Below, piece by piece: positions 5,809-50,171 of a stretch of DNA of 64,000 nt. Numbering within the stretch: position 1 is the stretch's first letter; each line of letters starts with the position of its first letter. The notes under the pieces are model-generated. The model did not search any database, had not been told where the DNA came from, and worked only from the letters and a program-made list of their open reading frames with translations. A program made the position numbers and the translations under genes. Source of the DNA: Micromonospora lupini (lineage in GTDB: Bacteria; Actinomycetota; Actinomycetes; Mycobacteriales; Micromonosporaceae); NCBI RefSeq assembly GCF_026342015.1, contig NZ_JAPENL010000003.1, forward strand, positions 310,001-374,000, read 5' to 3'.

Positions 5809-5816
5809 CCCCGCTC

Positions 5817-5848: not shown

Positions 5849-5921
5849 CGCGGGCCACCGCCGGAGCGGGAACCGCGACGGGGAACTACCGTGTAGTGCG
5901 GGACACGGCGGAGGGACGGCG

Positions 5922-7064: not shown

Positions 7065-7101
7065 CGTCCTCGGGCCGGCGCGGGCACGCCTGACGGTCGG
7101 G

Positions 7102-18861: not shown

Positions 18862-18883
18862 GGGGTCTCCCTTCGCCTGTCGC

Positions 18884-20008
18884 TCACCGGACGCCTGCTG
18901 GCACGCGGTGCGCGCCGCCGACCGGTTCCGGCCAGGTGTCCGGTCGCTGCGTGTCGAACAGCTCGTTGGTCCAGAAGAGGGTGAGCAGCTCGTCCGGGCC
19001 GGTGTTGGTGATGTTGTGCGCCCACATGGTCGGCATGTCGACGACGACGGGTTCGTCGCCGCTGACCGGGAACCGGACGACGTCGGTGTCGCCGACCCGG
19101 CGCAGGCTGATCTCGGCGGTGCCGCGCAGCACCACGAACCGTTCCACCTTGGCCAGGTGGAAGTGCTCGCCACGGGTGACGCCGGGGAGGGTCGTCGAGC
19201 AGAACGTCTGTCCCGCTCCCCCGTGGGTCTTGACCGTCTCGACGAGCGCGCCCCGGGCGTCGGCCCGGCTGGGCAGGGCGAGGGGATAGTGCGCCGGGAA
19301 GCAGTGCGACCGGTACGTGTTGAACAGCCGCACGTCGTGCCTGTCGCGCAGCGGCGGGATCTCGCCGGTGCGGTAGATGCCGGCGTACGAGGTGAGCTGG
19401 TCGGCGAGGTCACGGACCCCGATGCGCAGCGGCGGCAGCGCCGGGTCCCAGGAGCCGCCCGCCGTCACGCCGGCAAGCCGGGCCGCCGCGTCGGTGACGT
19501 GTACCAGGTCCAACTCCCGGTCGGCGTGCACCTCGGGCCGGCCACCCTCGGCGAGCACGCGGCAGAAGGTGGCGACCGCCGAGTTGTACCAGGGCCGGCC
19601 GTGTTCGCCGTACAGGTTGGGCAGCAGCACGTCGTCCAGGACCACACCGGTCTCGGCGAGGATGCCGGCGGCGGTGGCCTTGGCGTCGCCGTACGGGGTG
19701 CCGTTGCCGGCCTGGACCGAGTTGGCGAAGACCACCCCGGCCGGCGGTTCCGGGCAGGCCCGCAGGCCATTGGCGAGCTGCGCGGCGAGCTGCACGTTGC
19801 CGGCCGCCACGTCGGCGGGCTCGCCACGGTTGACCCCGGCCAGGTGCAGCACCCGGTCCACCCCGGCGATCCGGCGGGCGACCACCGCCGGGTCGGCCAG
19901 GTCGGTGCGGGTGAGCACTGTCGGCTCGGGCCAGCCGAGCGCGTGCAGCAGGACGCGCACGTGCCAGCCGAGGAAACCGCCGGCACCGGTGACGGCGAGC
20001 CTCAGCAC
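18884..20008 (-). CDS. capF: Bifunctional epimerase-reductase with cupin domain, CapF/FnlB type
   Basis: 374 residues from a GTG that overlaps the capE stop by seven bases. The N-terminal 250 residues form an NAD(P)-binding domain of extended short-chain type (VTGAGGFLGWHV). The C-terminal 110 residues form a cupin with a metal site (GEHFHLAKVERFVVLRG, then MWAHNITNTG). In Staphylococcus and E. coli the cupin epimerises C3 and the N-domain reduces C4, giving UDP-6-deoxy-L-talNAc. Both domains look complete. Together with capE and capG this gives UDP-N-acetyl-L-fucosamine. Confidence 0.92.
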   Translation of the reverse strand: MLRLAVTGAGGFLGWHVRVLLHALGWPEPTVLTRTDLADPAVVARRIAGVDRVLHLAGVNRGEPADVAAGNVQLAAQLANGLRACPEPPAGVVFANSVQAGNGTPYGDAKATAAGILAETGVVLDDVLLPNLYGEHGRPWYNSAVATFCRVLAEGGRPEVHADRELDLVHVTDAAARLAGVTAGGSWDPALPPLRIGVRDLADQLTSYAGIYRTGEIPPLRDRHDVRLFNTYRSHCFPAHYPLALPSRADARGALVETVKTHGGAGQTFCSTTLPGVTRGEHFHLAKVERFVVLRGTAEISLRRVGDTDVVRFPVSGDEPVVVDMPTMWAHNITNTGPDELLTLFWTNELFDTQRPDTWPEPVGGAHRVPAGVR

Positions 20009-21042
20009 GCCAGCACCGGATCGCGCAGCGCCAGCTCCGCCCGGACCTCCGGCAGCGTCCTGAGCAGCTCCACGATCTCGGGTACGCCGAGCCGTGTGGC
20101 GTTGGCCGAGTTGAAGTCCTCGCGGGGAGTCTCGCCCAGCTCACCCTCGGAGACGTAGAGCGCGTAGTTGAGGTCCCGGGCGTCCAGCGGCACCCGGAAG
20201 AAGTCGCCGAAGTCGTCCGCCTGGGCCAACTCCTCGTGACTCGCCAGGGTCTCGTGCCACTTCTCGCTGTGCCGCACGCCGATCACGTCCAGTTTGAACG
20301 GCACGTCGAAGAGCTGGCAGACCGCTTCGGCGAGATCGCCGATGGTGCAGGCGGCGGCCTTGCGGATGAACACGTCGCCGGGGCGGGCGTGGTGGAACGC
20401 GTGCTCGACCAGGTCGACCGAGTCGGCAAGCGACATGAGGAAGCGGGTCATGGCGGGTTCGGTGACGGTGGGCGCGCGGCCGGCCTTGATCTGCTCGATG
20501 AACAGCGGGATCACCGAGCCGCGGGAGTACATCACGTTGCCGTACCGGACGCAGGAGACGGTGGTGGAGCTGTTCGGGTTGTTCCGGGCGTACGCCTGGG
20601 CGACCTTCTCCATCAGCGCCTTGCTCATGCCCATGGCGTTCACCGGGTAGACGGCCTTGTCGGTGCTGAGGACGACCACCGAGCTGACGCCGTTGTGCGC
20701 GGCGGCCTCGACCACGTTGCCGCTGCCGAGGATGTTGGTGCGTACCGCTTCGAGGGGGAAGAACTCGCAGGACGGCACCTGCTTGAGCGCCGCCGCGTGG
20801 AAGACGAAGTCGACGCCACGGGTGGCGCGCAGCACGGTGTCGACGTCGCGTACGTCACCGATGTGGTAGCGCACCCGCTCGTCGCCTGTCGACCGGCGCA
20901 TGGCGTCCTGCTTGGCCTCGTCCCGACTGAGGATCCGCACCTCCGCGACATCACGGTCGAGCAACCGCCGGGCCATGGTCTGTCCAAAGGATCCGGTCCC
21001 GCCGGTGATCAACACCCGGCGACCCGCGGTCAGCACGCTCAT
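20002..21042 (-). CDS. capE: UDP-GlcNAc 4,6-dehydratase/5-epimerase, CapE/FnlA type
   Basis: 346 residues; ATG at 21042 with GGGAG upstream. It is the first enzyme of UDP-N-acetyl-L-fucosamine synthesis: it dehydrates UDP-GlcNAc at C4/C6 and inverts C5. The NAD(P) loop is TGGTGSFGQ (13-21). STDKA is at 126-130, and the usual YxxxK is replaced by MxxxK (M137, K141), as described for CapE enzymes. RYGNVMYSRGSVIP follows. First gene of the capE-capF-capG operon. It is divergent from the O-antigen-ligase gene across about 350 bases. Confidence 0.93.
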   Translation of the reverse strand: MSVLTAGRRVLITGGTGSFGQTMARRLLDRDVAEVRILSRDEAKQDAMRRSTGDERVRYHIGDVRDVDTVLRATRGVDFVFHAAALKQVPSCEFFPLEAVRTNILGSGNVVEAAAHNGVSSVVVLSTDKAVYPVNAMGMSKALMEKVAQAYARNNPNSSTTVSCVRYGNVMYSRGSVIPLFIEQIKAGRAPTVTEPAMTRFLMSLADSVDLVEHAFHHARPGDVFIRKAAACTIGDLAEAVCQLFDVPFKLDVIGVRHSEKWHETLASHEELAQADDFGDFFRVPLDARDLNYALYVSEGELGETPREDFNSANATRLGVPEIVELLRTLPEVRAELALRDPVLAC

Positions 21043-22818: not shown

Positions 22819-24258
22819 TCAACCGACGTCCGACCCCTCCAACGCGACGACCCGCCCGGGTCGGGGCACCAGCGCCGCGCCGGCCGGTAGACGTGCCGCC
22901 TCCCGCAGCACCTGGGCGAAGCGGGCCGCCACCCGGTCGGTGCGGTGGTGGCGCACCGCGTACGCCAGCCCTCGCCGGCCCAGGCGGGCCCGCAGCTCCG
23001 CGTCGGCGCAGAGCGGGCCGAGCGCGGCGGCGAGGGCAGCCGGATCGTCGCGTCCGACCACCGCACCGGCGTCGGCCGCCGCCAGGTGCGCCATCGAGGC
23101 CAACTCGGCCGGGCCGAACCCGAGGACGGGACGACCGGCCGCCAGGTACTGCGGGATCTTGGTGGAGAGCGAGTAGCGGGTGTACCTGCGGTGCTCGGCG
23201 GCGAACGACTCGACGTGCACAAGCACATCGGCCCGGCGCAGCACCCCGGCGACCTCGCCGCTGGCCAACGACCGACCCAGGTGGACGGCTTGCATCCCGG
23301 CGAACGCCCCGGCGTAGCGGCCGACGTCGACCGCCGGGGCGTGCACGGTCAGCCGCGCCGGCGTGCCCCTGGCGGCCAGCCGGTCGACGGCGGCGCCGAC
23401 CCGACGCAGCGACCGCCACCGGTCCAGGTGCAGCCCACCCACGTAGACCAGCTCGACAGGGGTTCCGGCCGGCCGGTCCGGCGTCCGACCTCGGGGATCG
23501 GCGAAGTCGGCGGCGTCGACACAGTTACCGAAGGCGGCGAACGGCAGCCGGTAGCGGCGTTCGAACTCCCGCGCCATGGCCTCGCTGATCCCCATCCCGT
23601 ACGAGGAGTGCCGCAGAACGTCGCGGAACCCGGCGCGGACGGCGAGCCGGGGCAGACCCAGCACCTGGCCACCGGTGTAGAGCGTCGTGGGCCAGTCGTC
23701 CATGAAGTGCGGGACCAGCGGCACCCGGCACTCCTGTGCCGCGGCGACCGCGAGGCGCATCATCCGGATGCTGCCCAGCGTCGTGTAGACCACGTCCGGC
23801 CGCTGGTCGCGCACCCAGCGACGGACGTCCGCGGGGACACGGACCGGACTGAGGTCGACGAAGGCCCGCAACTGGGTGCGCAGGTGGGCGCGCACCGCAC
23901 TGGGCGCCGGATTCCGGGCCACGGCGACCGGGCCGACCGGGCCCGTCGAGCGGACGTTGCTGGCCGAGCCGACCGGGCCCGTCGGGCCGGGCGAGCCCTT
24001 CACGACCGCCCGGAGTGGCCGGCGGACGCGTTCCCACTGCCGGAACAGGTGGTACTCCACCGGGGCGTTGCGCGGCGCGAACCGCGCGAACGTGCCGACC
24101 GCGTCCGGACCCGGAGCGCGGTCCTCGGCGTAGAGCTGCGCGAGCCGGTCCGCCGGCCAGCCGGTGAACAGGTTCGACAGGGTGATGCCGGTGCCGGTGG
24201 AGCGGTCGAACACGGCAGCGCTCACCACGAGCACGCGGGGATACTCGTCAACGCGCAC
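22819..24258 (-). CDS. Glycosyltransferase with a Gly-Pro-rich insertion
   Basis: 479 residues from a GTG at 24258, which overlaps the flippase gene by 11 bases and has GAGGAGGGA upstream. The N-terminus reads PRVLVVSAAVFDRSTGTGITLSNLF, and the C-terminal donor domain holds YVGGLHLDRW, RYTRYSLSTKIPQYLAAGRPVLGFGP. The protein at 38857-40251 is a clear paralogue with the same start and the same RYTRYS-STKIPQYLA block. Residues about 87-113 (GSPGPTGPVGSASNVRSTGP) are extra Gly-Pro sequence next to a 17-base direct repeat (23932-23948 and 23968-23984), so this is probably a repeat-driven insertion. Downstream partner of the flippase. Confidence 0.85.
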   Translation of the reverse strand: MRVDEYPRVLVVSAAVFDRSTGTGITLSNLFTGWPADRLAQLYAEDRAPGPDAVGTFARFAPRNAPVEYHLFRQWERVRRPLRAVVKGSPGPTGPVGSASNVRSTGPVGPVAVARNPAPSAVRAHLRTQLRAFVDLSPVRVPADVRRWVRDQRPDVVYTTLGSIRMMRLAVAAAQECRVPLVPHFMDDWPTTLYTGGQVLGLPRLAVRAGFRDVLRHSSYGMGISEAMAREFERRYRLPFAAFGNCVDAADFADPRGRTPDRPAGTPVELVYVGGLHLDRWRSLRRVGAAVDRLAARGTPARLTVHAPAVDVGRYAGAFAGMQAVHLGRSLASGEVAGVLRRADVLVHVESFAAEHRRYTRYSLSTKIPQYLAAGRPVLGFGPAELASMAHLAAADAGAVVGRDDPAALAAALGPLCADAELRARLGRRGLAYAVRHHRTDRVAARFAQVLREAARLPAGAALVPRPGRVVALEGSDVG

Positions 24259-25651
24259 TTTCCACAAGTCCCTCCTCGACGGCCGGGCCGCGGTGACGCC
24301 GCAGCGTCCGGCGATATCCGTACAGCGCCGCAGGCGCGACGGTAAGCGCGTAGCCGACGGCGCCCACCCAGGGCACGGCGGCGACGCCGAGCCGGTCGGC
24401 GGCGAACCACTTGCCGAGCACCGACAGCGCCAGAAACGCCAGCCAACCGCACAACTGCGGGACGAGGACGCCTCCGGCGTTCTGCACCATGAACCGTGGT
24501 GAGAGCGCCGACTGCAACAGCCACCAGACGCCCAGCCCGGCGAGCAGCCACCGGTCACCGCCCATCGGCACCGGCAGCCAGGCGGCGAACAGCCGGTCGC
24601 CGACGGCCACCAGGGCCACCGCGGGCAGACCGGCGGCGAGCACGGACAGCACTGTCATTCGCCGCGTGGTCCGCCGCACCCAGTCCACCTGCCCCTGTGC
24701 CAGGGCCTCGCCGTTGGCCGGCCAGAGCGGAACGTTTACCAGGACGACGAGCTGGCCGAGCTGGGACAGCAACTTGGCCGGCACCACGTACCCGGCCACC
24801 GCGGACAGGCCGAGCGCGTGCGCGATGATCAGCGTGTCCGCGTTTGTGGCGAACGAGATGACCACTGTGAGCACGAAGAACAGCCCGCTGAGCCGGGTCA
24901 GCTCCACTGCGGTGTCGACACGCACGGCGCTGGGCGCGGGCCGGATCCGCGGCTCCTGCCGGCCGAAGAACCACAGCGTGTTGAGCAGGTTGACAAGCAG
25001 CGGCGCGGTGACCGAGACGGCCACCACCAGAATCGGCGACCAGCCGGCCCGGACCACACCCAGCACCGCGCCGAGCGCGGCCAGGCTGCCGGTGGTCTGC
25101 CAGACGTTGCTCCGGCCGACCTGCTGGTAGGCGTACTGGACCCGGGCGATCAGGCTGAGCGGGACGTTGAGCGCGAACGCGGTGAGGCAGATCAGCGAGA
25201 TCATCCGGGTCTGCTCCGGGGTGACCTGACCTGTCACGTTGAACAGCGCCGACCACGGCACCGCGCCGGAGCAGGCCCAGAGCACACCTGTGAGAGCGAG
25301 CGCGAGGACCGACAGGGTCAGGTACGCGCTGGAGATGTAGCGACGGGCCCGGACGGTGTCGCCGCGGGCGTAGCAGGGGGCCAGCTTGGTCATCAGCCCG
25401 CTGCCCAGACCCAGGTCGGCGAAGGCCGCCATGCCGGCCAGCGCGGCGACCGCCATCCACAGGCCGTACAGGTCGTTGCCGAAGTAGGGAAGCGTCACCG
25501 GCACCAGCACGATCGGCACGACGAGCCCGGCCACCCGGCTGAGCAGCGCGGTGGCGACGCCGGAGAGCAGTCGGCGGCCACGGTCGGGGCGACGACGGTG
25601 TGCGCCAGGTGTGCGGGCGCGCCGGGTCCGCTCGGCGACCCCGGACGACAT
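24248..25651 (-). CDS. Polysaccharide flippase, Wzx/MATE-like
   Basis: 467 residues from ATG 25651. About 12-14 membrane helices begin after a basic 30-residue N-terminus; the first reads LLSRVAGLVVPIVLVPVTL. Family blocks are NDLYGLWMAVAALAGMAAFADLGLGSGL near residue 60 and RVQYAYQQVGRSNVWQ near 170. It moves the lipid-linked repeat unit across the membrane. It is followed by an overlapping glycosyltransferase gene. The same flippase-glycosyltransferase pair occurs at 37373-40251 on the other strand. Confidence 0.9.
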   Translation of the reverse strand: MSSGVAERTRRARTPGAHRRRPDRGRRLLSGVATALLSRVAGLVVPIVLVPVTLPYFGNDLYGLWMAVAALAGMAAFADLGLGSGLMTKLAPCYARGDTVRARRYISSAYLTLSVLALALTGVLWACSGAVPWSALFNVTGQVTPEQTRMISLICLTAFALNVPLSLIARVQYAYQQVGRSNVWQTTGSLAALGAVLGVVRAGWSPILVVAVSVTAPLLVNLLNTLWFFGRQEPRIRPAPSAVRVDTAVELTRLSGLFFVLTVVISFATNADTLIIAHALGLSAVAGYVVPAKLLSQLGQLVVLVNVPLWPANGEALAQGQVDWVRRTTRRMTVLSVLAAGLPAVALVAVGDRLFAAWLPVPMGGDRWLLAGLGVWWLLQSALSPRFMVQNAGGVLVPQLCGWLAFLALSVLGKWFAADRLGVAAVPWVGAVGYALTVAPAALYGYRRTLRRHRGPAVEEGLVESAR

Positions 25652-28075: not shown

Positions 28076-28103
28076 GGCGCGATCCCGGACGGGATCAGCG
28101 CGC
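28076..28103. terminator. Hairpin between convergent glycosyltransferase genes
   Basis: GGCGC-GATCCC and GGGATC-A-GCGCGCC form a 10-11 base stem with one bulge and a 4-base loop. It overlaps the stop codon of the minus-strand gene (28095-28097) and can serve both directions. Confidence 0.55.
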
Positions 28104-29366
28104 CTGCTCCCCGACTGTCGCCCCGACGTCGTCGAGGGCGTCCCGCTGGCCGTGACGCCCGGTCACGCCGACGAGGAAGTCGCGCATCCGGCGACCCTGC
28201 GCGGCCGGGTTGCGGGTCTCCCGCACGAAACGGGCCCCGCCCGCGCCCAGCGCCCGCGCCTCCCCCGCCGGCAGGTCCAGCACCCGGCCGATCGCCGCGC
28301 GCAGGCCGTCGGGGGTGTCCGGCTCGGCGTACGACAGCCAGGGCGCGTACGCGGGCGGGATGCCGGGCAGCCGGGTGCTCACCACAGGCACGCCTGCGGC
28401 GAGATACTCGATGATCTTCGACGGGAACGACAAGCGGACGAAGTCCTGGTCCACGGGGCGTGGATTCACCAACACTGCGGCACGGCTCAGGCGGGGCAGC
28501 AGCTCCGCCCGGGGCAGCAGCTCGGGCGGCACGATCCGCTGGTCCACGGCCGCCTGCTCGCGCAGCCATTCGGTCAACTCGCCCCGCCCGTACAGGCACA
28601 GCCGCAGCTCGTCCCCGGGCAGGCCGCGGAACGCCTCGACGAGCCGATCGACGCCGTACGCGCGGCTGAGTCCGCCGGCGTAGACGATGTCGCGTGTCGA
28701 CCCGGCGCTCGCGGCCCTGTCGTCGGCTGCTGTCGGCTCGGCCCAGATGCCCTCCATCACCAGCCGGGGACGGCCGGGGGCGAAGTCGTCGGCGAGCGCG
28801 GGGGTCAGGGCGATCACCCCGGCACAGCGGGCGAGGGCGGCCCGGACCAGCGCGACATCGAGCCCGCGCAGCAGCCGGACCAGACGACCGTCGGTGGGGA
28901 GCACGACACCTGGCGGGTCGGTGAGCACCGGCACGACCCGGACCCCGCGCCGCCGGGCCCGCAGCACACCGAACCACAGGAAGGGCGAGTGCACCCCGTG
29001 CACCAGCAGCACCTCGGTGTGCCGCTCGTGAAGCGCCCGGCCTCCGGTGCGCCAGGCGGCCACGAAGCGGGTCAGGTGCTTGAGACCGAGCAGGTTGACG
29101 AACGCCAGCAGTTGACCGTCCACCTCGTCCTGACGGAAGTGGCCGGCCCGGAAGCGGAGCTGGCGGTTGCCGGGCCAGCCCGACACCGGCGCCGCGGAGA
29201 GCAGGTGTACCGGACACCCGGCGGCCCGCAGAGCGCGGACCAGACCCCAGGCGAAGGTGTGGGTCTGCGTGGGCATGATGGTGTCGCGGGCGATGATCTC
29301 GGCGAGCACGTCGTCGGGCACGGTGAAGCCCAGGAACGTGACGCGCGGGCCGCCTGGCGGCGTCAC
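28095..29366 (-). CDS. Glycosyltransferase
   Basis: 423 residues from a GTG at 29366, which overlaps the stop of the upstream gene (GTGA). It has the two-domain GT-B plan: an N-terminal part with LGFTVPDDVLAEIIARDTIMPTQTHTFAW, and a C-terminal donor domain with DIVYAGGLSRAYGVDRLVEA and SFPSKIIEYLAAGVPVVSTRLPG. The unusual opening (a PDDVLAEI helix and PTQTHTF) is shared with a subset of polysaccharide-locus glycosyltransferases. Second gene of a two-gene minus-strand operon. Donor and acceptor cannot be read. Confidence 0.85.
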   Translation of the reverse strand: MTPPGGPRVTFLGFTVPDDVLAEIIARDTIMPTQTHTFAWGLVRALRAAGCPVHLLSAAPVSGWPGNRQLRFRAGHFRQDEVDGQLLAFVNLLGLKHLTRFVAAWRTGGRALHERHTEVLLVHGVHSPFLWFGVLRARRRGVRVVPVLTDPPGVVLPTDGRLVRLLRGLDVALVRAALARCAGVIALTPALADDFAPGRPRLVMEGIWAEPTAADDRAASAGSTRDIVYAGGLSRAYGVDRLVEAFRGLPGDELRLCLYGRGELTEWLREQAAVDQRIVPPELLPRAELLPRLSRAAVLVNPRPVDQDFVRLSFPSKIIEYLAAGVPVVSTRLPGIPPAYAPWLSYAEPDTPDGLRAAIGRVLDLPAGEARALGAGGARFVRETRNPAAQGRRMRDFLVGVTGRHGQRDALDDVGATVGEQAR

Positions 29367-30535
29367 GCCCGCTCCCCGAGCACCCGCTGGTAGACGCGGT
29401 CCAGGGCACCAAGCATGACGTCGAGGCTGTAACCCTCGGCGACCACCTTGCGGCCCAACTCCCCCAGGTGCCCGCGCTCGGCGGGGTCGTCGAGCAGTGG
29501 GGCCAGCGCGGCGGCGAGGGCGTCCGGGTCGCCCGGTGGCACCAGTCGGCCACCGCCGGAGCGCAGCACCTCCACGTTGCCGCCCACCGCCGACGCGACC
29601 ACCGGGAGCCCGTGCGCCATCGCCTCCAACAACGCGTTGGAGAGGTTCTCGTGCAGGGTCGGGAAGACGAAGAGGTCCGCCGCGGCGAGCAGGTCGGGCA
29701 CGTCGAGCCGGTTGCCGAGCAGGCGTACCTCGACGTCGCCGACGTGGGCCAGCGCGGCCGACACCCCGTCGCGGTCGGGCCCGTCGCCCGCGACAAGCAG
29801 CACCCGGCGCGCGGCCGTCGGCCCCCTGCCGGCGGTGGACGGCGGCAGGCGTCGCAGCGCGTCGGCGAGAACGCCGAAGCCCTTCTCCCAGGTCAGCCGG
29901 GACACCGCGATCAGGGCCACGTCGTCGGGCCGCAGCCCCAGGTCGGCGCGTACGCGGTCGCGGGCGGCGCGCGGGTGCGCCGGCAGCGGAACCCCGTTGG
30001 GGATCACTCCGACGAACTTCGGACCCAGGCGGCGCAGGAAGTCCCGACCGGCGGCGTACTCGCAGACCGCGCCGACGTGGCTGGCCAGCCGCAGCGTCGC
30101 GGGCTCTGCGCCGTGCACGAGCGCCCGGCGCTTCCAGGCCGGCCCGGGCTGACGCAGGTCGCGTACGGTCCCGTGCACGGTGACCAGGACACGGGGACAG
30201 CCGGCGAGCCGGGCGGCGAGGACACCGTGGAAGCCCTCGTTCTGCAGCCCTCGCACGTGCACCACCGCGGGTCGCACCCGACGCAGCAGGCGCACCCACT
30301 CCCGCAGCAGCGACACGTTGAGGCTGCCGTTGCCCGCGTGCTGGTGCATCCGGACGAACTCGTACCGCTCGGCCAACGGCGACGCGAGGACCCGCTGCAC
30401 GGCGGTCAACGGACCGTTGGCGCCCGGGGTTCCGGCCGAGTGCTGCACGACCACCGGCCGCGTCACGGCTCGACTCCGCGCGACGACTGACGGCACCGGG
30501 GGTCGGGCGCGGCGCGACGCTGCATGGCCTCTCAT
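29363..30535 (-). CDS. Glycosyltransferase, GT4-type
   Basis: 390 residues from ATG 30535; the open frame reaches 30631 and no start has a strong ribosome site, so the N-terminus is uncertain by up to 32 residues. Core motifs are VVVQHSAGTPGANGPLTAVQ at the N-domain, VHVRGLQNEGFHG, VIPNGVPLP, VSRLTWEKGFGVLADAL, VFPTLHENLSNALLEAMAHGLPVVAS and a final GGNVEV. The EAMAHG glutamate is the GT4 catalytic-region residue. First gene of the operon with the glycosyltransferase that follows at 29366. Confidence 0.87.
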   Translation of the reverse strand: MRGHAASRRARPPVPSVVARSRAVTRPVVVQHSAGTPGANGPLTAVQRVLASPLAERYEFVRMHQHAGNGSLNVSLLREWVRLLRRVRPAVVHVRGLQNEGFHGVLAARLAGCPRVLVTVHGTVRDLRQPGPAWKRRALVHGAEPATLRLASHVGAVCEYAAGRDFLRRLGPKFVGVIPNGVPLPAHPRAARDRVRADLGLRPDDVALIAVSRLTWEKGFGVLADALRRLPPSTAGRGPTAARRVLLVAGDGPDRDGVSAALAHVGDVEVRLLGNRLDVPDLLAAADLFVFPTLHENLSNALLEAMAHGLPVVASAVGGNVEVLRSGGGRLVPPGDPDALAAALAPLLDDPAERGHLGELGRKVVAEGYSLDVMLGALDRVYQRVLGERA

Positions 30536-30697
30536 TCCGACGGCGGCTCGGCGTCGGGCCGAATCCGGCCCGCTGACAGCACATGTACGGCAACTGCGGC
30601 GCGGCGCGCGAGGTGACGGCACGCGGAGCACGGAGCACTGCCTAGACTAAACGGCCATAAAGGCCAATTGACCCGAGTTCTCCCAAGGGGGATGACA
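30536..30697. promoter_or_regulatory. Divergent promoter region between glycosyltransferase genes
   Basis: About 160 bases. An AT-richer stretch near 30645-30672 (CTAGACTAAACGGCCATAAA, then GGCCAATTGA) contains the inverted repeat GGCC-ATAAA-GGCC and is the likely promoter core for one or both genes. The ribosome site AAGGGGG at 30685-30691 serves the plus-strand gene. Confidence 0.45.
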
Positions 30698-32005
30698 GTG
30701 GGCGAGCCCACCACCGTCGCGGGACCCGTCCGCGCTTCGCGGCCGGCCGCGACGCCGCACGTGCTGGCGCTGGCCGCCTACCGGTTCCCGCACGGCGACG
30801 CCATGTCCAACCGTCTGCTGCACCTGGCCCGGTCCGCCACTCCCGTCGGCGGCGTGACAGTCGTGGTCAACGACTGGCCGCAGGACGGATCACGCCCGCC
30901 GGTCGCGCCCCACCTGCCGGCCGGCGTACGGCTGATCGAGCTGCACCGTCGCGGAGTCGGCGGCGGGGTGCCGGGCCGCTGGCTGCACAGGCGTCTGTGG
31001 CCCCTGCGGGTGTTGGCCGCGCTGCGCTGCGCGGGCATCCGCCCGGACGAGCTGGCCGGCGTGTTCCTCCCTGCCGGCCTGTTCACCCTGACCACCTGGG
31101 TGGCGCTCCGGGCCACGGTGCGCTGCCCGGTGACCGTGGACGTCCTGGAGCGGCACGACCGGGCACAGTTTCCCCGGGGGTGGCTGACGCCGTACTTCGT
31201 CCGGCACCGGTGGGCGTCCTTTCTGGCCGGACGACTGGCGGACCGGATCATCGCCATCTCCGAGACGCTGGGGCGGCGTTTCGTCGCGCGTGGCCGCCCG
31301 ACGCTTGTCGTGCCGCCGCAGGTGGACTGCGCCGACTACGCCGAGCACGCGCCGCTCCCGCTCGCTGGCGGGCTCCGGCTCCTCTACGCCGGATCGGCCG
31401 GGCCCAAGGACCAGTTGGCAGTGGTGCTGGAGGGCCTCCGCCGCCTCGCCCCCGACGACCGGCGCCGGGTGCGCCTGGTGATCGCGGGGATCAGCCGGGA
31501 ACAGGCGGGGCACCTCTCCGACCTGGACGAGGCCGGACCGCGGGACCTCGACGACCAGGTGAGCTTCCTCGGCTGGATCCCGCGCCACGAGGTCCTCGCC
31601 GAACTGCGTCGGGCGCACTTCTCGGTCCTGGTCCGCCCTCCGGCCGGGTACGCGCAGGCGGGTTTCCCGTCCAAGGTGCCGGAGAGTCTGGCCGCCGGGT
31701 GCCCGGTGCTGCTCAACCACACAAGTGACCTCCGGCGCTACGTGGTGGACGGCCGGGAGGGGATCGTGCTGGCCGGCTGCGGGGCGGAGGACGTCCGGCA
31801 CGGAATCGAGCGGGCGCTGCGGCTCGACGACCCGGCCTGGGCGGCGATGAGCCGCGCGGCCCGCGAGCGGGCCCACTGCTTCGACTACCGGGCCTGGACG
31901 CCTGTGGTCAGCGACTTCGTCACCGGCGCCGGGGTCGGTCCGGGCGTCGGCAGGTCGGCCAGAACGGCCAGCTCGGTGGCGGACAGTCGGCGGTGCGCCG
32001 GATAG
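30698..32005 (+). CDS. Glycosyltransferase
   Basis: 435 residues from GTG 30698, six bases after AAGGGGG; an ATG at 30692 is too close to that site. The N-domain has LALAAYRFPHGDAMSNRLLHLA and VDVLERHDRAQFPRG. The donor domain has LLYAGSAGPKDQLAVVLEGL and GFPSKVPESLAAGCPVLLNHTSDLRRY. The same SK-x-x-ESLA-x-G-x-PV-x-x-N-x-TSD pattern recurs in the protein at 40248-41444, so they are one subfamily. The last 121 bases overlap the convergent acyltransferase gene. The conserved domain ends near FDYRAWTPVVSDF, so the final 30 residues are probably a frame extension. Confidence 0.85.
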   Translation: MGEPTTVAGPVRASRPAATPHVLALAAYRFPHGDAMSNRLLHLARSATPVGGVTVVVNDWPQDGSRPPVAPHLPAGVRLIELHRRGVGGGVPGRWLHRRLWPLRVLAALRCAGIRPDELAGVFLPAGLFTLTTWVALRATVRCPVTVDVLERHDRAQFPRGWLTPYFVRHRWASFLAGRLADRIIAISETLGRRFVARGRPTLVVPPQVDCADYAEHAPLPLAGGLRLLYAGSAGPKDQLAVVLEGLRRLAPDDRRRVRLVIAGISREQAGHLSDLDEAGPRDLDDQVSFLGWIPRHEVLAELRRAHFSVLVRPPAGYAQAGFPSKVPESLAAGCPVLLNHTSDLRRYVVDGREGIVLAGCGAEDVRHGIERALRLDDPAWAAMSRAARERAHCFDYRAWTPVVSDFVTGAGVGPGVGRSARTASSVADSRRCAG

Positions 32006-32583
32006 AGCTGCCGCTCGTGGTCCTGGATGGTCTCCACCGGCCAGCGCAGGCGGATCACCCGGGCCGGGTTGCCGGCGGCCACCGTGTACGGCGGCACCGA
32101 GCGCGTGACGACAGCGCCCGCGCCGATCACCGCCCCCCGGCCGATTGTCACGCCGTGCAGGATCACCGCCCGGGTGCCCACCCAGACGTCGTCGCCGATC
32201 GTCACACCCCGGTCCTGGGTGTCGTCGCCGGGCGCCTTGTCGACCGCGATCATCGGCACGCCGACCTGGTCGATGCGGTGGTTGCCGCCCCGGATGGTCA
32301 CCTCGGGGCCGAACATGACGTTGTCGCCGATCCGGATCCTGGATCGGGCCGCCATCAGGACCGGCCGCCAACCGAGATCCACGTTGTTCCCGACCTCGAT
32401 CGTCTCGCAGGTGTAGACCCCGTCGGGGTCGAATGTGAAGTTGTCCCCTCGGGCCGCGAACCGACCGGCCAGGGCGAGGCCCCGGACCGCCCGACGGGCC
32501 CGGGTCGCCGTACACAGGAGACGGTCGAGGGCCCCGGCCAAGGGACCGAGCAGCGTTCCGGGTCGCTCGACGCCGACGCGCAT
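31885..32583 (-). CDS. Hexapeptide-repeat acyltransferase (maltose O-acetyltransferase-like)
   Basis: 232 residues; ATG at 32583 with AAGGAGGG just upstream. It has a left-handed beta-helix: GDNVMFGPEVTIRGGNHRID, then GDDVWVGTRAVILHGVTIG, ending GAVIGAGAVVTRSVPPYTVAAGNPARVI, the classic LacA/MaeA-like signature. H in GGNHR is at the catalytic position. It probably O-acetylates a sugar of the repeat unit in the cytoplasm. The C-terminal 40 codons overlap the convergent glycosyltransferase gene. Confidence 0.88.
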   Translation of the reverse strand: MRVGVERPGTLLGPLAGALDRLLCTATRARRAVRGLALAGRFAARGDNFTFDPDGVYTCETIEVGNNVDLGWRPVLMAARSRIRIGDNVMFGPEVTIRGGNHRIDQVGVPMIAVDKAPGDDTQDRGVTIGDDVWVGTRAVILHGVTIGRGAVIGAGAVVTRSVPPYTVAAGNPARVIRLRWPVETIQDHERQLYPAHRRLSATELAVLADLPTPGPTPAPVTKSLTTGVQAR

Positions 32584-32700
32584 TTCACCCTCCTTGTCCC
32601 GGTTTGGACCGGCCGGGCCAGGGGCCGATGGTAGTTTCGACCCCCTCCACAATAGGTGTATACCGCTCGAAGTCCGTCGTAGCCCGGCAGAGAGGACGAG

Positions 32701-33798
32701 ATGACAAGAATCCTGGTCCTGACCGACTACCGGGGGACGTTCTACTCCACCGCGCGCACGCAGCACGGTCTGTGCACGATGGACGTCGGCAAGATCGCCG
32801 CGCAGCTCACCCGCGCCGGCCTCGACCCCGAGGTCATCCGGTTCGCCGACCTGGACCTCACCGGCGACGTGCGCGGGGTGCCGGTGCTCTACACCTCGTC
32901 GGAGGACCGCGGGCTGCACTACAAGAGCTGGATCGAGGACCTGGTGCTGGCCCTGGAGACCGCCGGAGCGCGGGTCATCCCGGGCTACCGTTACCTGCGC
33001 GCCCACCACAACAAGGTGATGATGGAGGCGCTGCGCGCGCGGCTCTTCCCGCCGGACGCCCGCCTCCTTGACACCCGCACCTTCGGCACCTACGAGGAAC
33101 TCGCGGCGACGGAGCTGGACGGTCCGTGGCCCAAGGTGCTCAAGTCGGCGTACGGCGCCGGCTCGCAGTTCGTGGCCCGTGCCGCCGACCGACGCGAGCT
33201 GCTGCGCACCGCCCGCACCCTCAGCGACACCTCCGACCGGGGCGAAGCCGTTCGCGAGCACTGCCGACGACTGCTGCGCCGCGACCACCATCCCCGCTCC
33301 CTGCACCGGCAGAAGTTCCTGGTGCAGGCGCTGGTCCCCGGGCTGACCGGAGACTTCAAGGTGCTCCGGATGGGTGCGCGCTACTACACGCTCTACCGCC
33401 GCAACCGGCCCGGCGACTTCCGCGCCAGCGGCAGTGGCGACGTCGACTTCCAGGACCTGGCGGGCGTCGACCGCGACGCGCTGCTCGACTACGCGGAACG
33501 GGTCTCCGACACTCTCGGTACCCCGCTCACCTCGCTGGACATCGGTCACGACGGCGAGCGCTTCCACCTGCTCGAGTTCCAGTGCCTGCACTTCGGGACG
33601 GTCACCGCCGAGAAGTCGACCGGCTACCACATGCGGGTGGGAGACACGTGGCAGCACGTCGAGGAGGAGTGCGACATCGAGGCGGTGTTCTGCGAGGCGA
33701 TCGTGGGGCACCTGCGGCAGTTCGCGCCTGCACCTCCCCGACTGTCGCCCGAGGCGATCACCGCGGCATCAGGCACCCGGCGCCCGTCCGGCCGGTGA
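32701..33798 (+). CDS. ATP-grasp ligase of unknown substrate
   Basis: 365 residues; ATG at 32701 with GAGAGG upstream. The sequence reads as a RimK/ATP-grasp-like fold. After an N-terminal alpha/beta domain (ILVLTDYRGTFYSTART) comes K148 in KVLKSAYGAGSQFVARA as nucleotide lysine and glycine loop. QKFLVQALVPGLTGDFKVLR follows (205-223), then YRRNRPGDFRASGSG (232-246), and D280 with E292-x-Q294 (SLDIG..FHLLEFQ) as metal ligands. ATP-grasp enzymes join a carboxylate to an amine or similar via an acyl phosphate. In this locus it could attach an amino acid to an amino sugar or uronic acid. No close characterised relative is known to me. Confidence 0.75.
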   Translation: MTRILVLTDYRGTFYSTARTQHGLCTMDVGKIAAQLTRAGLDPEVIRFADLDLTGDVRGVPVLYTSSEDRGLHYKSWIEDLVLALETAGARVIPGYRYLRAHHNKVMMEALRARLFPPDARLLDTRTFGTYEELAATELDGPWPKVLKSAYGAGSQFVARAADRRELLRTARTLSDTSDRGEAVREHCRRLLRRDHHPRSLHRQKFLVQALVPGLTGDFKVLRMGARYYTLYRRNRPGDFRASGSGDVDFQDLAGVDRDALLDYAERVSDTLGTPLTSLDIGHDGERFHLLEFQCLHFGTVTAEKSTGYHMRVGDTWQHVEEECDIEAVFCEAIVGHLRQFAPAPPRLSPEAITAASGTRRPSGR

Positions 33799-34000: not shown

Positions 34001-35203
34001 ATGCCGGTGCCTGGTCGTCTCGCGGACGTGGCCGATGCCCCGCCGCGCCCGCACACGGGCGACACCGTGTACCTGTCGCCGCCCGACATCGGGCCGCTGG
34101 AGGAGTCGTACCTGATCGCGGCCCTGCGCTCGGGCTGGGTGGCACCTGTCGGTCCGGATCTGCAGGCGTTCGAACACGACGTCGCGACGAGGGTCGGCAC
34201 CGGCGGGGCCGTCGCCGTGAACTCCGGAACAGCGGCTCTGCACCTGGCCCTGCTCGGTGTGGGAGTCGGCCCCACCGACGTGGTCATCGTGCCCACCCTC
34301 ACCTTCGTCGCCACCGCGAACGCCGCCCGGTACATCGGCGCACGACCGGTCTTCGTCGACTGCGATCCGCAGACCGGCAATGTGGACGTCGACCTCGCCG
34401 CCGACCTGATCCGACGGCTGCGGGCGCGCGGCGAGCGGGTCGGCGCGATCGTCGGAGTGGACATGTTCGGCAGCTGCGCCGACTACAGCGCCCTGCTCCC
34501 CCTGTGCGCGGAGACCGACGTGCCCCTCGTGGAGGATGCCGCGGAAGCACTCGGCGCCTGCCACGCCGGGCGGGCCGCCGGCTCCTTCGGGCGCGTCGGC
34601 GTGCTGTCGTTCAACGGCAACAAGATCATGACCACCTCCGGTGGTGGAATGCTGGTGTCCGACGACGCCGCGCTCCTGGCCCGCGCCCGCCACCTCGCCA
34701 CCCAGGCCCGCGAACCGGCACGGCACTACGAGCACCACGAGACGGGCTACAACTACCGACTCAGCAATCTGCTCGCGGCGCTCGGACGGGCCCAGCTCAT
34801 CCGGCTGGACGAGATGATCGCCCGACGCCGCCACCTGCGCGACACGTACGCCAAGCTCTTCGCCCCGGTGCCCGGCGTGCGGCTGGTCGGGGCCCAGGAC
34901 GCCGAGTCCAACTGTTGGCTGACAGTCATCGCCGTCGAGCCCCAGCGGTGCGGTTGGCGGGCCGACGACCTCGCGACGCACCTCGCGGAACGGAACATCG
35001 AGACCCGGCCGGTGTGGAAGCCGATGCACCTGCAACCGATGCACGCGGGTGCGGAGAGCCTGCTCACCGGTGCCGCCGAGCGACTCTTCACCGACGGGCT
35101 CACCCTGCCCAGCGGGAGCGCCCTCACCGAACCGCAGATCGCCCGGGTCTTCGCGGCGATCGACGAGTTCCTGAGCGCCCGGGCATGCCTGTCCCCGTCG
35201 TGA
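34001..35203 (+). CDS. DegT/DnrJ/EryC1 sugar aminotransferase, PglE-like
   Basis: 400 residues; ATG at 34001 with GGAGG upstream. The PLP lysine is K208 in SFNGNKIMTTSGGGML, NSGTAALHLALLGVG is near residue 75, and HYEHHETGYNYRLSNLLAAL is near 245. It is highly similar throughout to the protein at 13947-15131 (for example ATQAREP-HYEH-GYNYRLS-LLAALGRAQL and WKPMH-QP). It stands directly before the CapD/PglF-type dehydratase gene, so it is the more natural PglE partner for that enzyme. The two aminotransferases may act on different 4-keto sugars or be redundant. Confidence 0.9.
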   Translation: MPVPGRLADVADAPPRPHTGDTVYLSPPDIGPLEESYLIAALRSGWVAPVGPDLQAFEHDVATRVGTGGAVAVNSGTAALHLALLGVGVGPTDVVIVPTLTFVATANAARYIGARPVFVDCDPQTGNVDVDLAADLIRRLRARGERVGAIVGVDMFGSCADYSALLPLCAETDVPLVEDAAEALGACHAGRAAGSFGRVGVLSFNGNKIMTTSGGGMLVSDDAALLARARHLATQAREPARHYEHHETGYNYRLSNLLAALGRAQLIRLDEMIARRRHLRDTYAKLFAPVPGVRLVGAQDAESNCWLTVIAVEPQRCGWRADDLATHLAERNIETRPVWKPMHLQPMHAGAESLLTGAAERLFTDGLTLPSGSALTEPQIARVFAAIDEFLSARACLSPS

Positions 35204-35438: not shown

Positions 35439-37313
35439 ATGCCGCAGGAGACAGAGCACACGGAACGCGTGGACCGGCGGACACGACGGGCCAGGGCACG
35501 CCGCGCCACAGCGGCCCTCCTCGCCACCGACACCACCGCCTGGGTCTGCGGTTTCGTCGCGGCGGTGTGGACCCGGTTCGAATTCCACCTCCCGCCCGGC
35601 CAACCGGCCCGGGCGGCGGCGATCGGCGTGCTCGCGGCCGCCGTACACCTGGGAGTCGCGGCGGTGCGACGCCTCCACTCCGGGCGGCACCCGCTGGGCA
35701 GCCTGCACGATGCGCAGGGCGTCGCCGGCGGCGCCGTCCTGGCTGCCGCCATCGTGCTGCTCGGCCTGCTGCCCTCCGACGAGCGGCCGGTGCCGGCGAG
35801 CACCCCGCTGGTCGGTGGCGCACTCGCCCTGCTCCTGATGCTCGGCGTTCGGTTCGCGTACCGCCACCGTCGGGACCTCTCGATGCGACCGGACGTCCGG
35901 TCGTCGACACCTGTGCTGCTGTTCGGGATGGGCGACGCCGGGCAGGAGCTGCTGCGGGCCATGCTCAGCGATCCGCGGGGCCGGTACCTGCCGGTGGGCG
36001 CTCTCGACGACGACGCCGACAAGCGCGACCTGCGCATTCGAGGAGTCCGGGTGCTCGGCGGGCGGCACGACGTGCGCTCGGCGCTCAGGCGTACCGGGGC
36101 GGGGGCCGTCATCTTCTCGGTGGCGAATGCCGACGCCGCGCTGATCCGCGAGATCCGCGAGGCCGCCCTCGCCGCCGGCGCGGTGTTCAAGGTGCTGCCG
36201 CCCGTGCGGGACCTGGTCGACCACCGGATCACCGTCACCGATGTCCGGGACGTGCAGATCGGCGACCTGCTCGGCCGCCGCCAGGTGGTCGGTGACCTGC
36301 CGCTGCGAACGAACAGCCTGACCGGACGGCGGATCCTGGTCACCGGAGCAGGCGGATCGATCGGGTCGGAACTCTGCCGCCAGGTGATGAAGGCCGACCC
36401 GGGTGAGCTGATGATGCTGGACCGGGACGAGTCGGCCCTGCACGGCCTGCAGATGTCGCTCAACGGGCGGGCGCTGCTGGACGGTCCCGAGTTGATCCTC
36501 GCCGACCTGCGCGACGACGAGGGCATCCGACGGATCATCCGCGAGCGCCGCCCGGAGATCATCCTGCACGCGGCGGCACTCAAGCACCTGACCCTGTTGC
36601 AGCGGCACCCGGGCGAGGCGGTGAAGACGAACATCTGGGGCACCCTCTCGGTGCTGGACGCCTGCCAGGACGTCGCCAAGTTCGTCAACATCTCGACCGA
36701 CAAGGCCGCCAACCCGATAAGCGTGCTCGGGTACTCGAAGCGGATCACCGAGCAACTGACCGCGCACGCGGCGTCCCGGTTCCCGGGCACCTTCCTCAGC
36801 GTCCGGTTCGGCAACGTGTTGAGCAGTCGCGGCTCGGTGGTGACGGCCTTCCAGCGGCAGATCGAGGACTCCCGACCGTTGACAGTCACCCACCCCGAGG
36901 TCACCCGCTACCTGATGACCGTCCAGGAGGCCGTCCACCTCGTGCTCCAGGCCGCCGAGATCGGCCGGGACGGGGAGGCGCTGGTGCTGGACATGGGCGA
37001 GCCGGTCCGCATCGCCGACCTGGCCCGCCAGATGGCCGAGCAGGCATCCAGCCAGGCGCCCATCGTCTACACCGGCCTGCGCCCCGGAGAGAAGCTGCAC
37101 GAGGACCTCTTCGGCGCCGGTGAGACAGACACCCGGCCGTTGCACCCACTGGTGTCGCACGTGGCGGTGCCCGCGCTCGACCCGAGCGAGGTGAGCGGGC
37201 TCGACCCGTACGACGACACGGCGAAGCTCATCGAGCACCTCGCGTTGCTCTGCGCCCCGCCGATCGGCCCGAGGGTGGACGGTCCGGTGGGCGTACCCCT
37301 GCAGTCGCGGTGA
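35439..37313 (+). CDS. Membrane UDP-GlcNAc 4,6-dehydratase, CapD/PglF/WbpM type
   Basis: 624 residues; ATG at 35439. Three or four membrane helices lie in the first 145 residues. A first Rossmann domain (VLLFGMGDAGQELLRAML) follows near residue 165, then the catalytic extended short-chain domain from about 290. There ILVTGAGGSIGSELCRQV binds NAD, HAAALKHLTLLQRHP follows, and ISTDKAANPISVLGYSKR near 419-434 holds the catalytic residues. It makes UDP-2-acetamido-2,6-dideoxy-4-keto-glucose, the substrate for the PglE-like aminotransferases. First gene of a five-gene stretch in the same direction that runs to 41444. Confidence 0.93.
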   Translation: MPQETEHTERVDRRTRRARARRATAALLATDTTAWVCGFVAAVWTRFEFHLPPGQPARAAAIGVLAAAVHLGVAAVRRLHSGRHPLGSLHDAQGVAGGAVLAAAIVLLGLLPSDERPVPASTPLVGGALALLLMLGVRFAYRHRRDLSMRPDVRSSTPVLLFGMGDAGQELLRAMLSDPRGRYLPVGALDDDADKRDLRIRGVRVLGGRHDVRSALRRTGAGAVIFSVANADAALIREIREAALAAGAVFKVLPPVRDLVDHRITVTDVRDVQIGDLLGRRQVVGDLPLRTNSLTGRRILVTGAGGSIGSELCRQVMKADPGELMMLDRDESALHGLQMSLNGRALLDGPELILADLRDDEGIRRIIRERRPEIILHAAALKHLTLLQRHPGEAVKTNIWGTLSVLDACQDVAKFVNISTDKAANPISVLGYSKRITEQLTAHAASRFPGTFLSVRFGNVLSSRGSVVTAFQRQIEDSRPLTVTHPEVTRYLMTVQEAVHLVLQAAEIGRDGEALVLDMGEPVRIADLARQMAEQASSQAPIVYTGLRPGEKLHEDLFGAGETDTRPLHPLVSHVAVPALDPSEVSGLDPYDDTAKLIEHLALLCAPPIGPRVDGPVGVPLQSR

Positions 37314-44373: not shown

Positions 44374-44663
44374 TCCTCTTCGTCACTGAAGCCGCACCGG
44401 CGACGTTGGACACGACAGACCGACGAGGCCCGCGCGGCACACCACGCCGCACCGGCCTCCGAGACCGTGCCTAATGTCCGATTAATGCCGAAATGCAGCT
44501 TCCCGGACCGCCGGCGAGCCCGGGAGGAAATGGGCTAAATGCCGCCGATAAGCTGATAGCGTCGCCCTCCCCGTTGCGTCGAGCTGCCCACGCTCGGCAC
44601 CGCGAGTGGCCTGCGTTCCCGCAGGCCGTGATCGCCTCCGTCGTCCTGCCCAGGGGGAACCTG
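44374..44663. promoter_or_regulatory. Divergent region before the heparinase-like gene
   Basis: 290 bases. AT-richer segments around 44470-44500 (TAATGTCCGATTAATGCCGA) and 44530-44570 (GGCTAAATGCCGCCGATAAG) are promoter candidates. The hairpin GGCCTGC-GTTCCC-GCAGGCC (44608-44627) would lie in the mRNA leader of the plus-strand gene. The open frame continues through part of this region but lacks a ribosome site. Confidence 0.4.
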
Positions 44664-46664
44664 ATGGCCAGACCCGATCTCCGTGCGATGGCCGTGGACA
44701 TGCGCGCCCTCGGCCTGTCGGCGCCGCTCCGCGCGGCGTACGAGGCGTCCAAGCGCAGCGGATTCCACGCCGTCCTGTTCCGCGGCGAGACGCACAGGCA
44801 TCACCCGGCCAGCCTGGTGCCACTGGGCAGTACGGCGCCGCTCGGCGACGAGGCACGGCAGCGCTGCCTCGACGACGCCGGCCGCGTCCTGCACGAAGGG
44901 CTGCGGGTCTTCGGTACCCGGGTGGCGACCGGCGTGTCGACGCCGTGGAGCACCGACCCGCTGACCGGGCGGCAGTGGCCGGCCGACGCGCCGTGGTGGC
45001 GCGTCGACATCCGTTCCGGGGCACGGCTGTCGGACGTGAAGCACACCTGGGAGGCGGCCCGCCACCGCGACCTGGTCGTGCTGGCCCGCGCGGCACGCCT
45101 CGACCCGGCCGGCCCCTGGCGGGACGGCCTCGGCGACCTGCTGCGGGCCTGGTGCGACCAGTCGCCACCCGAACGGGGGGTGAACTGGTACTCCAGCCTC
45201 GAACTGGCGCTGCGCGCGATCGCCTGGAACCAGATCCTGGCGCTGGCCGGCGAGCGGCTCCCCCGCGACGTGGTGACCGCCATGGAACGGCACCTGCTGG
45301 CCAGCGCACGGCACCTGCTTGTCGAGCTGCCGTACACGGTGAGCAGCATGCGCAACAACCACATGCTCGGTGACGCGCTCGGGCTGATCCTGCTGTCGCG
45401 CATGTTCCCCACCGCCGCACGAGCCCGCTGGTGGGCGCGTACCGGCGAGCGGATGTTCGCCACGCAGCAGCGCCGGCACTTCGGGCCGGACGGCCGCATG
45501 ATCGAGGATTCGCTGTCGTACCACCGCTTCGTGCTGGAAATGCTCGTCGTGCGGTCGCTGCTCGGCGGCGCGCCGGCCGGCGTGCGCCGCGATCTGCGCG
45601 CGGCCAGCCTGCACCTCGCCCGGCTCGGCGTGTTCGACGGGGACGTCCCGCAGTACGGCGACTGGGACGAGGGCCGGATGCTCGCGTCCTCAGGCGACCC
45701 GCTCGACGTGGCCGGCTCCGCCGCGCTCGGGCTGGCGCTGTGCGGCGAACGGCTGCCGGCGCGGTGGTACGCCGACTTCGACGAGCTCGCCTGGTACGCG
45801 CCCGCGAGCGCCCGGGAGCGGGCCACCGCGGCGTCGTATCCGCCGGCCCGGCGCGGCGTCACGACCTCGGGAGGCACCGCGCTTGTCGAGCGGGGGCCGT
45901 GGCGGGTGTGGTTCAAGGTGGACGGCGGTCCCTCGCACGGCCACGCTGACCTGACCTCGGTCTGGGTCACGCACAACGGCCGCTGGCTGATCGCCGACCC
46001 GGGCACGGGCACCTACAACGGCCCGTTGGCGGTACGCAACGGGCTACGCACCTCCGCCGCCCACCCCGTGCGCCGCCCGGACGGGCAGGACCAGCTGATC
46101 CCGCACCGCGCGTTCCGCTGGCTCGCCACCGGTCGCGGTCACCTCGGACCGCCGCTCGTCCTGCCGGACCGCACCATCCTCTTCGGGTGGCACGACGCGT
46201 ACGCGCGCGGCGAGCGCCAGGTGCGCGTCGGCCGCGCCGTCGTGGTGGCCGACGCGTACGTGGCGGTCGTCGAGTTCGCCGACCCGTCGGGGGCCGCCGG
46301 CTCCTGGTCGCTCACGATCCCCCTGCACCCCGACGTCGAGGTGGCGAACGACGTGCTCGTCACCGGCGACACCAAACTCCACCTCTTCGGCCTGGACGGG
46401 TACGAGGCGGTACGCGGACGGTCCACGCCGTTCGCCGGTTGGCACAGCCGGACGTACGGGCGCTGGGAGCCGGCGACGTGGATCACGACCGAGAGCCGGG
46501 CCGACACCATCGCCTGGGGGCTCGGGGCCGTACCCGGGCCACGGCCCGACGCGACAACCCTCGACGGCCTCCGCTACGAGGTGGCCTGGACCGACGTGGG
46601 CGCCACCCTGACCGTCACCCACCTCGCCTCCGGGGAAGTCCAGCACGTGGGAGCACCGCGATGA
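44664..46664 (+). CDS. Heparinase II/III-like polysaccharide lyase family protein
   Basis: 666 residues; ATG at 44664 with AGGGGGA seven bases upstream, chosen over upstream starts without a site. The N-terminal half is an alpha/alpha toroid with NWYSSLELALRAIAWNQIL and MRNNHMLGDALGL near residue 230, and EDSLSYHRFVLEML near 285, which carries the usual catalytic Tyr/His. The C-terminal beta-sandwich begins near 420 with HGHADLTSVWVTHNGRWLI and DPGTGTYNG. No signal peptide is visible, so it appears cytoplasmic, unlike degradative heparinases. Such proteins are frequent in polysaccharide loci beside the fused oxidoreductase found at 47879. It overlaps the next gene (ATGA). Confidence 0.88.
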   Translation: MARPDLRAMAVDMRALGLSAPLRAAYEASKRSGFHAVLFRGETHRHHPASLVPLGSTAPLGDEARQRCLDDAGRVLHEGLRVFGTRVATGVSTPWSTDPLTGRQWPADAPWWRVDIRSGARLSDVKHTWEAARHRDLVVLARAARLDPAGPWRDGLGDLLRAWCDQSPPERGVNWYSSLELALRAIAWNQILALAGERLPRDVVTAMERHLLASARHLLVELPYTVSSMRNNHMLGDALGLILLSRMFPTAARARWWARTGERMFATQQRRHFGPDGRMIEDSLSYHRFVLEMLVVRSLLGGAPAGVRRDLRAASLHLARLGVFDGDVPQYGDWDEGRMLASSGDPLDVAGSAALGLALCGERLPARWYADFDELAWYAPASARERATAASYPPARRGVTTSGGTALVERGPWRVWFKVDGGPSHGHADLTSVWVTHNGRWLIADPGTGTYNGPLAVRNGLRTSAAHPVRRPDGQDQLIPHRAFRWLATGRGHLGPPLVLPDRTILFGWHDAYARGERQVRVGRAVVVADAYVAVVEFADPSGAAGSWSLTIPLHPDVEVANDVLVTGDTKLHLFGLDGYEAVRGRSTPFAGWHSRTYGRWEPATWITTESRADTIAWGLGAVPGPRPDATTLDGLRYEVAWTDVGATLTVTHLASGEVQHVGAPR

Positions 46665-47848: not shown

Positions 47849-47866
47849 CCCTCCCGGGTCAGCGCC
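47841..47866. terminator. Bidirectional hairpin between convergent genes
   Basis: Perfect 11-base arms (47841-47851 and 47856-47866) with a 4-base loop. The left arm includes the stop codon of the glycosyltransferase. It serves the convergent fused oxidoreductase too. Confidence 0.75.
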
Positions 47867-47878
47867 GGCCGCGCCGCG

Positions 47879-50047: not shown

Positions 50048-50171
50048 GCGGTCTGCCTGCCTTCGGAGATAAGAGCCAGTCGACACTGCACAGAGAGCAA
50101 AGGTATCAAATTGGATAACTTGTACCATTGGTACGACGCCGCTGATTCACGCCGAATTTACGAGGAGACCC
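50048..50171. promoter_or_regulatory. Divergent promoter with operator-like palindrome
   Basis: 124 bases. The segment 50095-50135 is AT-rich (AAAGGTATCAAATTGGATAA) and contains a perfect 6-1-6 palindrome GTACCA-T-TGGTAC at 50122-50134. On the minus strand TTGATACCT is a plausible -10. GAGGAG before 50172 is the ribosome site of the epimerase gene. A dimeric repressor could control both directions here. Confidence 0.5.

Follow-up and report, generated by a model that had tools for sequence, protein, structure and literature searches.

An unnamed RimK-like ATP-grasp ligase in a Micromonospora lupini exopolysaccharide locus: a predicted sugar-decorating amide ligase

The 64,000-nucleotide stretch of Micromonospora lupini DNA analysed here (the window) carries an ATP-grasp ligase gene within an exopolysaccharide locus. 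This raises the question of what such an enzyme joins, and whether its product is part of the polysaccharide.

The locus and the ligase gene

The exopolysaccharide locus around the ligase extends over about 13.9–51.3 kb and is made up of two glycan blocks. The first contains a DegT aminotransferase, a PglC-like transferase, an acyltransferase, glycosyltransferases, a CapE/CapF/2-epimerase set and a flippase-like protein, with the ligase as its last gene. The second opens with another DegT, together with a WbpM-like dehydratase. We note at the end of the second block (44493–51254) a heparinase II/III-like protein, a fusion of a zinc ADH with Gfo/Idh/MocA and a second WecB-like epimerase. The names TviB-like, CapE/F/G-like and WbbJ class are taken from family matches and identity, and loci outside the window are referred to by number. 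The features discussed below are as follows.

13947–15131, + strand: DegT aminotransferase of the ligase's own block; an about 60% identical homologue lies in the L006 cluster
15119–15793, + strand: PglC-like initiating sugar-phosphate transferase
17737–18888, − strand: UDP-GlcNAc 2-epimerase family protein, CapG/FnlC-like
18884–20008, − strand: CapF/FnlB-like reductase with a cupin C-terminal domain
20002–21042, − strand: CapE/FnlA-like UDP-GlcNAc 4,6-dehydratase/5-epimerase
24248–25651, − strand: polysaccharide flippase-like protein
28095–29400, − strand: glycosyltransferase-like gene (start approximate), 44% identical to its L007 counterpart
29363–30631, − strand: GT4 glycosyltransferase, 44% identical to its L007 counterpart
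30668–32005, + strand: GT4 glycosyltransferase
31885–32583, − strand: hexapeptide acyltransferase AcT1 (WbbJ/NeuD class), divergent from the ligase
32584–32685, no strand: 102 bp in place of a 783 bp segment of L004 (AcT2 and upstream DNA), from blastn alignment blocks
32701–33798, + strand: RimK-like ATP-grasp ligase of an unnamed family, 365 aa, from the ORF call, motifs, Ka/Ks and predicted fold
34001–35203, + strand: second DegT aminotransferase, downstream of the ligase, a neighbour that is not conserved
35439–37313, + strand: WbpM-like dehydratase of the second glycan block

The presence of CapE, CapF and the 2-epimerase predicts UDP-L-FucNAc as a product of the first block. The setting given in the original prediction, an exopolysaccharide locus with the ligase between an acetyltransferase and an aminotransferase, agrees with the positions of AcT1 and the second DegT.

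The ligase ORF has its ATG at 32701 and a stop ending at 33798 (365 codons). The GC content at its three codon positions (0.71/0.48/0.92) and Ka/Ks ratios of 0.22–0.31 against five other Micromonospora copies (Ka 0.03–0.21, Ks 0.12–0.96) indicate a real gene under purifying selection. The protein has no match at E ≤ 1 in Pfam or NCBIfam, which bears out the earlier statement that it belongs to no nameable ligase family. The RimK family models PF08443/TIGR00768 are among those without a match at this level, and their curated cut-off is thus not reached. PF08443 is touched by 3 of 10 ligase-family members (best E 0.00037), and generic ATP-grasp models give marginal E-values for members other than the window protein. 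A literature search, which did not take in the 2009 amidoligase survey (10.1039/b917682a), found no paper naming the family. The family is real, rare and unnamed.

Predicted fold and conserved residues

The AlphaFold2 model of the ligase, calculated from a 16-sequence input, has an ATP-grasp fold (pLDDT 83.7, pTM 0.82; an earlier model had a pLDDT of 78.5). Foldseek and VIA comparisons place this fold across the whole chain, residues 2–342. The top structural match is ArgX (PDB entry 3vpb; VIA Z 21.3, r.m.s.d. 3.6 Å, 271 aligned residues; Foldseek E 4e-14), followed closely by RimK (5zct; Z 21.0, r.m.s.d. 4.0 Å, 274 aligned residues, span 2–342). Overall, ArgX, LysX/ArgX and RimK lie nearest among the solved structures, with Z values of 20–21 and r.m.s. 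differences of 3.3–4.3 Å; synapsin, the D-Ala ligases and inositol kinases come next, at Z values of about 17–19. In profile searches the best match among solved structures is the L-amino acid ligase 3vot (E 7e-5). These comparisons uphold the RimK-like ATP-grasp class first proposed for this protein.

RimK, LysX and ArgX convert a carboxylate to an acyl phosphate, which is then joined to an amine. The window ligase shares with RimK (ribosomal protein S6–L-glutamate ligase) the fold over residues 2–342, and the profile alignment of the two runs through the D-x-K/R-x-L...DFR(A/S) segment, which reads D-x-K-x-L...DFR in the ligase comparison. It differs from RimK in having only 16% identity, in lacking a match to the RimK models, in a Gln for Asn substitution and in its location in a glycan locus. 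LysX/ArgX (LysW–2-aminoadipate/glutamate ligases) include the best structural match, but are only 14% identical to the ligase, and in the loci read, where ORFs down to about 90 aa were considered, no LysW-like carrier was recognised near the homologues.

The motifs of the ligase are NK (Lys105), KSAxGAGS (Lys148, Gly152, Ala153), Gln209, Asp218/Lys220, Arg233, DFRASGSG (239–246), Asp280 and Glu292-Phe-Gln294. In an alignment of 16 intact family sequences, Lys105, Lys148, Gly152, Ala153, Gln209, Asp218, Lys220, Arg233, Ala242–Gly244, Gly246, Asp280, Glu292, Phe293 and Gln294 are invariant. By position these correspond to the ATP lysines, glycine loop, hinge and metal ligands of ATP-grasp enzymes, roles which we assign from the motifs and the RimK alignment rather than from coordinates. 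The two ATP lysines, the glycine-rich loop and the acidic Mg ligands typical of the superfamily are thus all in place, with one substitution: every member has Gln294 where a metal-binding Asn is usual. The glycine loop, acidic metal ligands and FRASGSG region noted at the outset are accordingly present in all 16 sequences, and the loss of metal or nucleotide ligands that would have spoken against the assignment is not seen in any of them. The ligase is apparently an active enzyme.

Distribution and neighbours of the family

Nine homologues of the window ligase came from a scan of GTDB-species genomes: three belong to other Micromonospora (79–95% identical), and the remaining six, which are distant (34–44% identical), to Hyphomicrobiales, Clostridia, Lachnospiraceae and Bacteroidetes. 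Searches within genomes brought in two more Micromonospora copies (G1010 and G1079), a decayed one in Micromonospora G990 and three from Bacteroidia. Carriers are few: 7 of 160 Micromonospora genomes, including the decayed copy, 2 of 391 genomes in the class of L012, 1 of 289 in that of L007 and 5 of 295 in that of L009 (at E ≤ 1e-15, one of them a distant RimK-like relative), where each class count takes in the centre genome itself as a match. A scan of viral contigs added one homologue, in L021 (IMGVR_UViG_3300045146_000214), where a GT4, a DUF362 protein and the ligase homologue stand in a row (2581–6011), as though a piece of a host's glycan locus had been picked up. Plasmids searched with the window ligase and phage records searched with the L021 homologue gave no match. 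The G990 remnant (L049, 9801–10073) corresponds to C-terminal residues 255–348 and lies beside AcT1, in a glycan cluster that is otherwise similar.

Glycan genes are found beside 15 of the 16 intact ligase genes, so that homologues lying mostly outside polysaccharide loci, which would have counted against the original prediction, are not what we observe. The association is of the kind seen for the glycan-decorating amide ligase Cj1438C. The one exception is G1079 (L048), in which a 71%-identical ligase lies beside an LPG_synthase_C (MprF-type) protein and a DAO-type oxidoreductase (5947–11035); a separate biosynthetic use is possible in this strain.

The argument drawn from the PglE-like DegT neighbour does not hold. 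In M. arborensis (L006), ALFpr18c (L005) and G1010 (L047) the cluster ends with the ligase, and what comes next is a peptidase-like gene, not DegT. In L006 and L047 the gene directly after the ligase is the peptidase-like gene that sits at 51268 in the window, which places the second glycan block outside the conserved unit of the ligase. The proposed check of how often homologues adjoin DegT likewise shows no regular association across phyla, and we do not regard DegT as a general functional partner.

The remark that the ligase stands alone describes a derived state. The window and M. lupini L004 are 94–95% identical on both flanks of a 783 bp segment (L004 9203–9985; blastn) which contains a second hexapeptide acyltransferase, AcT2, missing from the window. 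In four other Micromonospora (L004, L005, L006 and L047) AcT2 is the gene immediately before the ligase. It is 67% identical to the acyltransferase in the same position in Hyphomicrobiales L007, where the ligase itself is only about 44% identical to that of Micromonospora. Because AcT2 is present in the four relatives and in L007, we infer from these sequence comparisons that the window strain lost it, rather than that the relatives gained it. In G990 the same position holds AcT1 and then only the C-terminal part of the ligase. From this pattern of presence and absence, together with the G990 remnant, the ligase and AcT2 look like a removable decorating module. The acyltransferase of L045 is 46–48% identical to AcT2 and 43% identical to AcT1, and is not claimed as an AcT2 orthologue.

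Other neighbours vary, and no one partner gene is common to all ligase loci. In L009, L044 and L045 (Bacteroidia) the ligase has a CapA/PGA_cap gene next to it, and in L007 one is found two genes off, giving three lineages in which it is within two genes; none of these four genomes has a second CapA above the family cut-off. CapA was found neither in the window locus (tblastn) nor in the genomes of L008, L010 and L011, and the two CapA genes of the window's genome are both away from the ligase locus. It is therefore not a universal partner. We also note a distinct RimK-like ATP-grasp protein in a Bacteroidia glycan locus (L050, 4511–6645; the ATP-grasp gene is 5632–6645) which adjoins CapA and has an identical DFRASGSG motif. 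It is close to the ligase family in hhalign (probability 98.9%, E 3.5e-17), but forms a separate branch and passes the RimK Pfam cut-off (29.4 versus 21 bits), for which the window ligase has no match. We know of no characterised member of this type. The pairing of CapA with ATP-grasp proteins may thus be wider than the window ligase's own family. Elsewhere, DUF362 adjoins the ligase in L012 as well as in the viral contig, WbuX, HisH and AglZ/HisF2 (an acetamidino/amidation set) are near it in L046, WbuX is near it in L044, and the L012 locus includes an asparagine synthase-like gene and a nearby TupA-like ATP-grasp.

Predicted function

In our view the best explanation, which we consider somewhat probable, is that the protein acts as an amide ligase of the RimK type, adding a decoration to one of the sugars in the exopolysaccharide repeat unit. 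We infer the amide bond, the sugar acceptor and the identity of the carboxylate partner from several lines of evidence. Decoration of a sugar is suggested by the location of nearly all distant relatives in surface-sugar gene clusters, and amide formation by the known chemistry of RimK, LysX and ArgX, which lead the fold ranking, and by the precedent of Cj1438C. The nitrogen-chemistry neighbours in L046, L044 and L012 point in the same direction, as do the invariant catalytic lysines, Asp280 and Glu292, the profile match to 3vot, the sole above-cut-off CapA close to the ligase in three lineages and the LPG_synthase_C domain beside the copy outside a glycan locus. Against this reading, the ATP-grasp superfamily also includes enzymes that make esters, thioesters or phosphates, the fold is found in inositol kinases too, the usual metal-binding Asn is replaced throughout the family, L048 is not a glycan locus and the loci lack a shared partner.

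The ligase would be a cytoplasmic enzyme of the RimK/LysX structural type which uses ATP and Mg to turn a carboxylate into an acyl phosphate; attack by an amine would then give the amide. The decoration would be made on a nucleotide-sugar or lipid-linked oligosaccharide, before flipping. The amide or ester bond to a sugar that was first proposed would fit both the fold and the setting; an amino acid on an amino sugar is one of two orientations it could take. Since the Micromonospora block has a DegT and no recognised uronic-acid dehydrogenase, in this genus we incline to the attachment of an amino acid, or of another acyl group, to the amino nitrogen of a 4-amino-4,6-dideoxy sugar. Across the family the opposite orientation, an amine joined to a uronic acid carboxylate, is nearly as likely. 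We do not adopt the uronic-acid route as the sole reading: a TviB-like nucleotide-sugar dehydrogenase is found in L007 and in the upstream part of the L012 locus, but both UDPG_MGDP_dh_N genes of the window's genome are away from the ligase locus.

Glycan decoration by an ATP-grasp enzyme is already published for a different branch of the superfamily, the TupA-like proteins (PF14305), which also occur in glycan loci. Cj1438C from the Campylobacter jejuni capsule is reported to join serinol-P or ethanolamine-P to GlcA as an amide at the C6 carboxylate (PMC11800379), and so works on a uronic acid carboxylate, the reverse of placing an amino acid on an amino sugar. The window ligase has no match to PF14305 at E ≤ 1, which is touched by 2 of 10 family members (best E 0.017), and hhalign of the family against one TupA-like protein, from L012, gives a probability of 0.4%. 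We therefore reject TupA membership. The sugar-transfer associated ATP-grasp proteins (PF14397) are likewise proteins of glycan loci, one lying about 1.3 kb from the ligase in L010, but that model is touched by 0 of 10 family members at E ≤ 1. A 2014 paper records an ATP-grasp aminoacyl ligase in the glycan locus of a Clostridium (PMC4000134).

Three other functions were weighed. The ligase could make a free small molecule (a dipeptide, amidated acid or acyl donor) which a hexapeptide acyltransferase or glycosyltransferase attaches to the glycan. The match to 3vot, a free L-amino acid ligase, would fit such a role, as would AcT2 directly before the ligase in the other Micromonospora and L007, and the G1079 copy with its oxidoreductases and MprF-type domain, away from glycan genes. 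However, the fold is nearer to the ligases with large acceptors (RimK, LysX/ArgX) than to the free dipeptide ligases, and the window strain keeps the ligase though AcT2 is missing; we regard this alternative as unlikely.

The same large-acceptor structures are what would recommend modification of a peptide or protein, perhaps one that processes glycans, much as RimK modifies ribosomal protein S6, since RimK and LysX/ArgX take protein acceptors. Linkage of the ligase to glycan genes in several phyla, with no conserved small carrier protein recognised beside it in the loci read, makes this very unlikely. We give equally little weight to a kinase role, in which the ATP-grasp enzyme would phosphorylate a sugar or a precursor of the glycan. 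Inositol 5/6-kinase (1z2n; Z 17.5, r.m.s.d. 3.6 Å, 257 aligned) and ITPK1 both occur in the structure and profile lists, but the kinases score below RimK, LysX and ArgX, and the family conserves the RimK-type DFR(A/S) loop.

A broader proposal, which we put forward tentatively and with considerable doubt, is that the members of this family are amide ligases that decorate polysaccharides and are related to TupA only as part of the same superfamily. Their partner would be a CapA/PGA_cap metallophosphoesterase-like protein in certain lineages and, in others, an acyltransferase, and the sugar-linked amino acid or peptide they would make is one not yet described. If true, this would give CapA-like proteins a biochemical role outside polyglutamate capsules. 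Some natural strains are missing the acyltransferase, or all but a part of the ligase, which makes a comparison of polysaccharides practical, and this rare, patchy family without a Pfam or NCBIfam model brings specific candidate partners with it. Amide-linked groups alter the charge and recognition of bacterial surface polysaccharides, and only a small number of the enzymes responsible for adding them have been identified.
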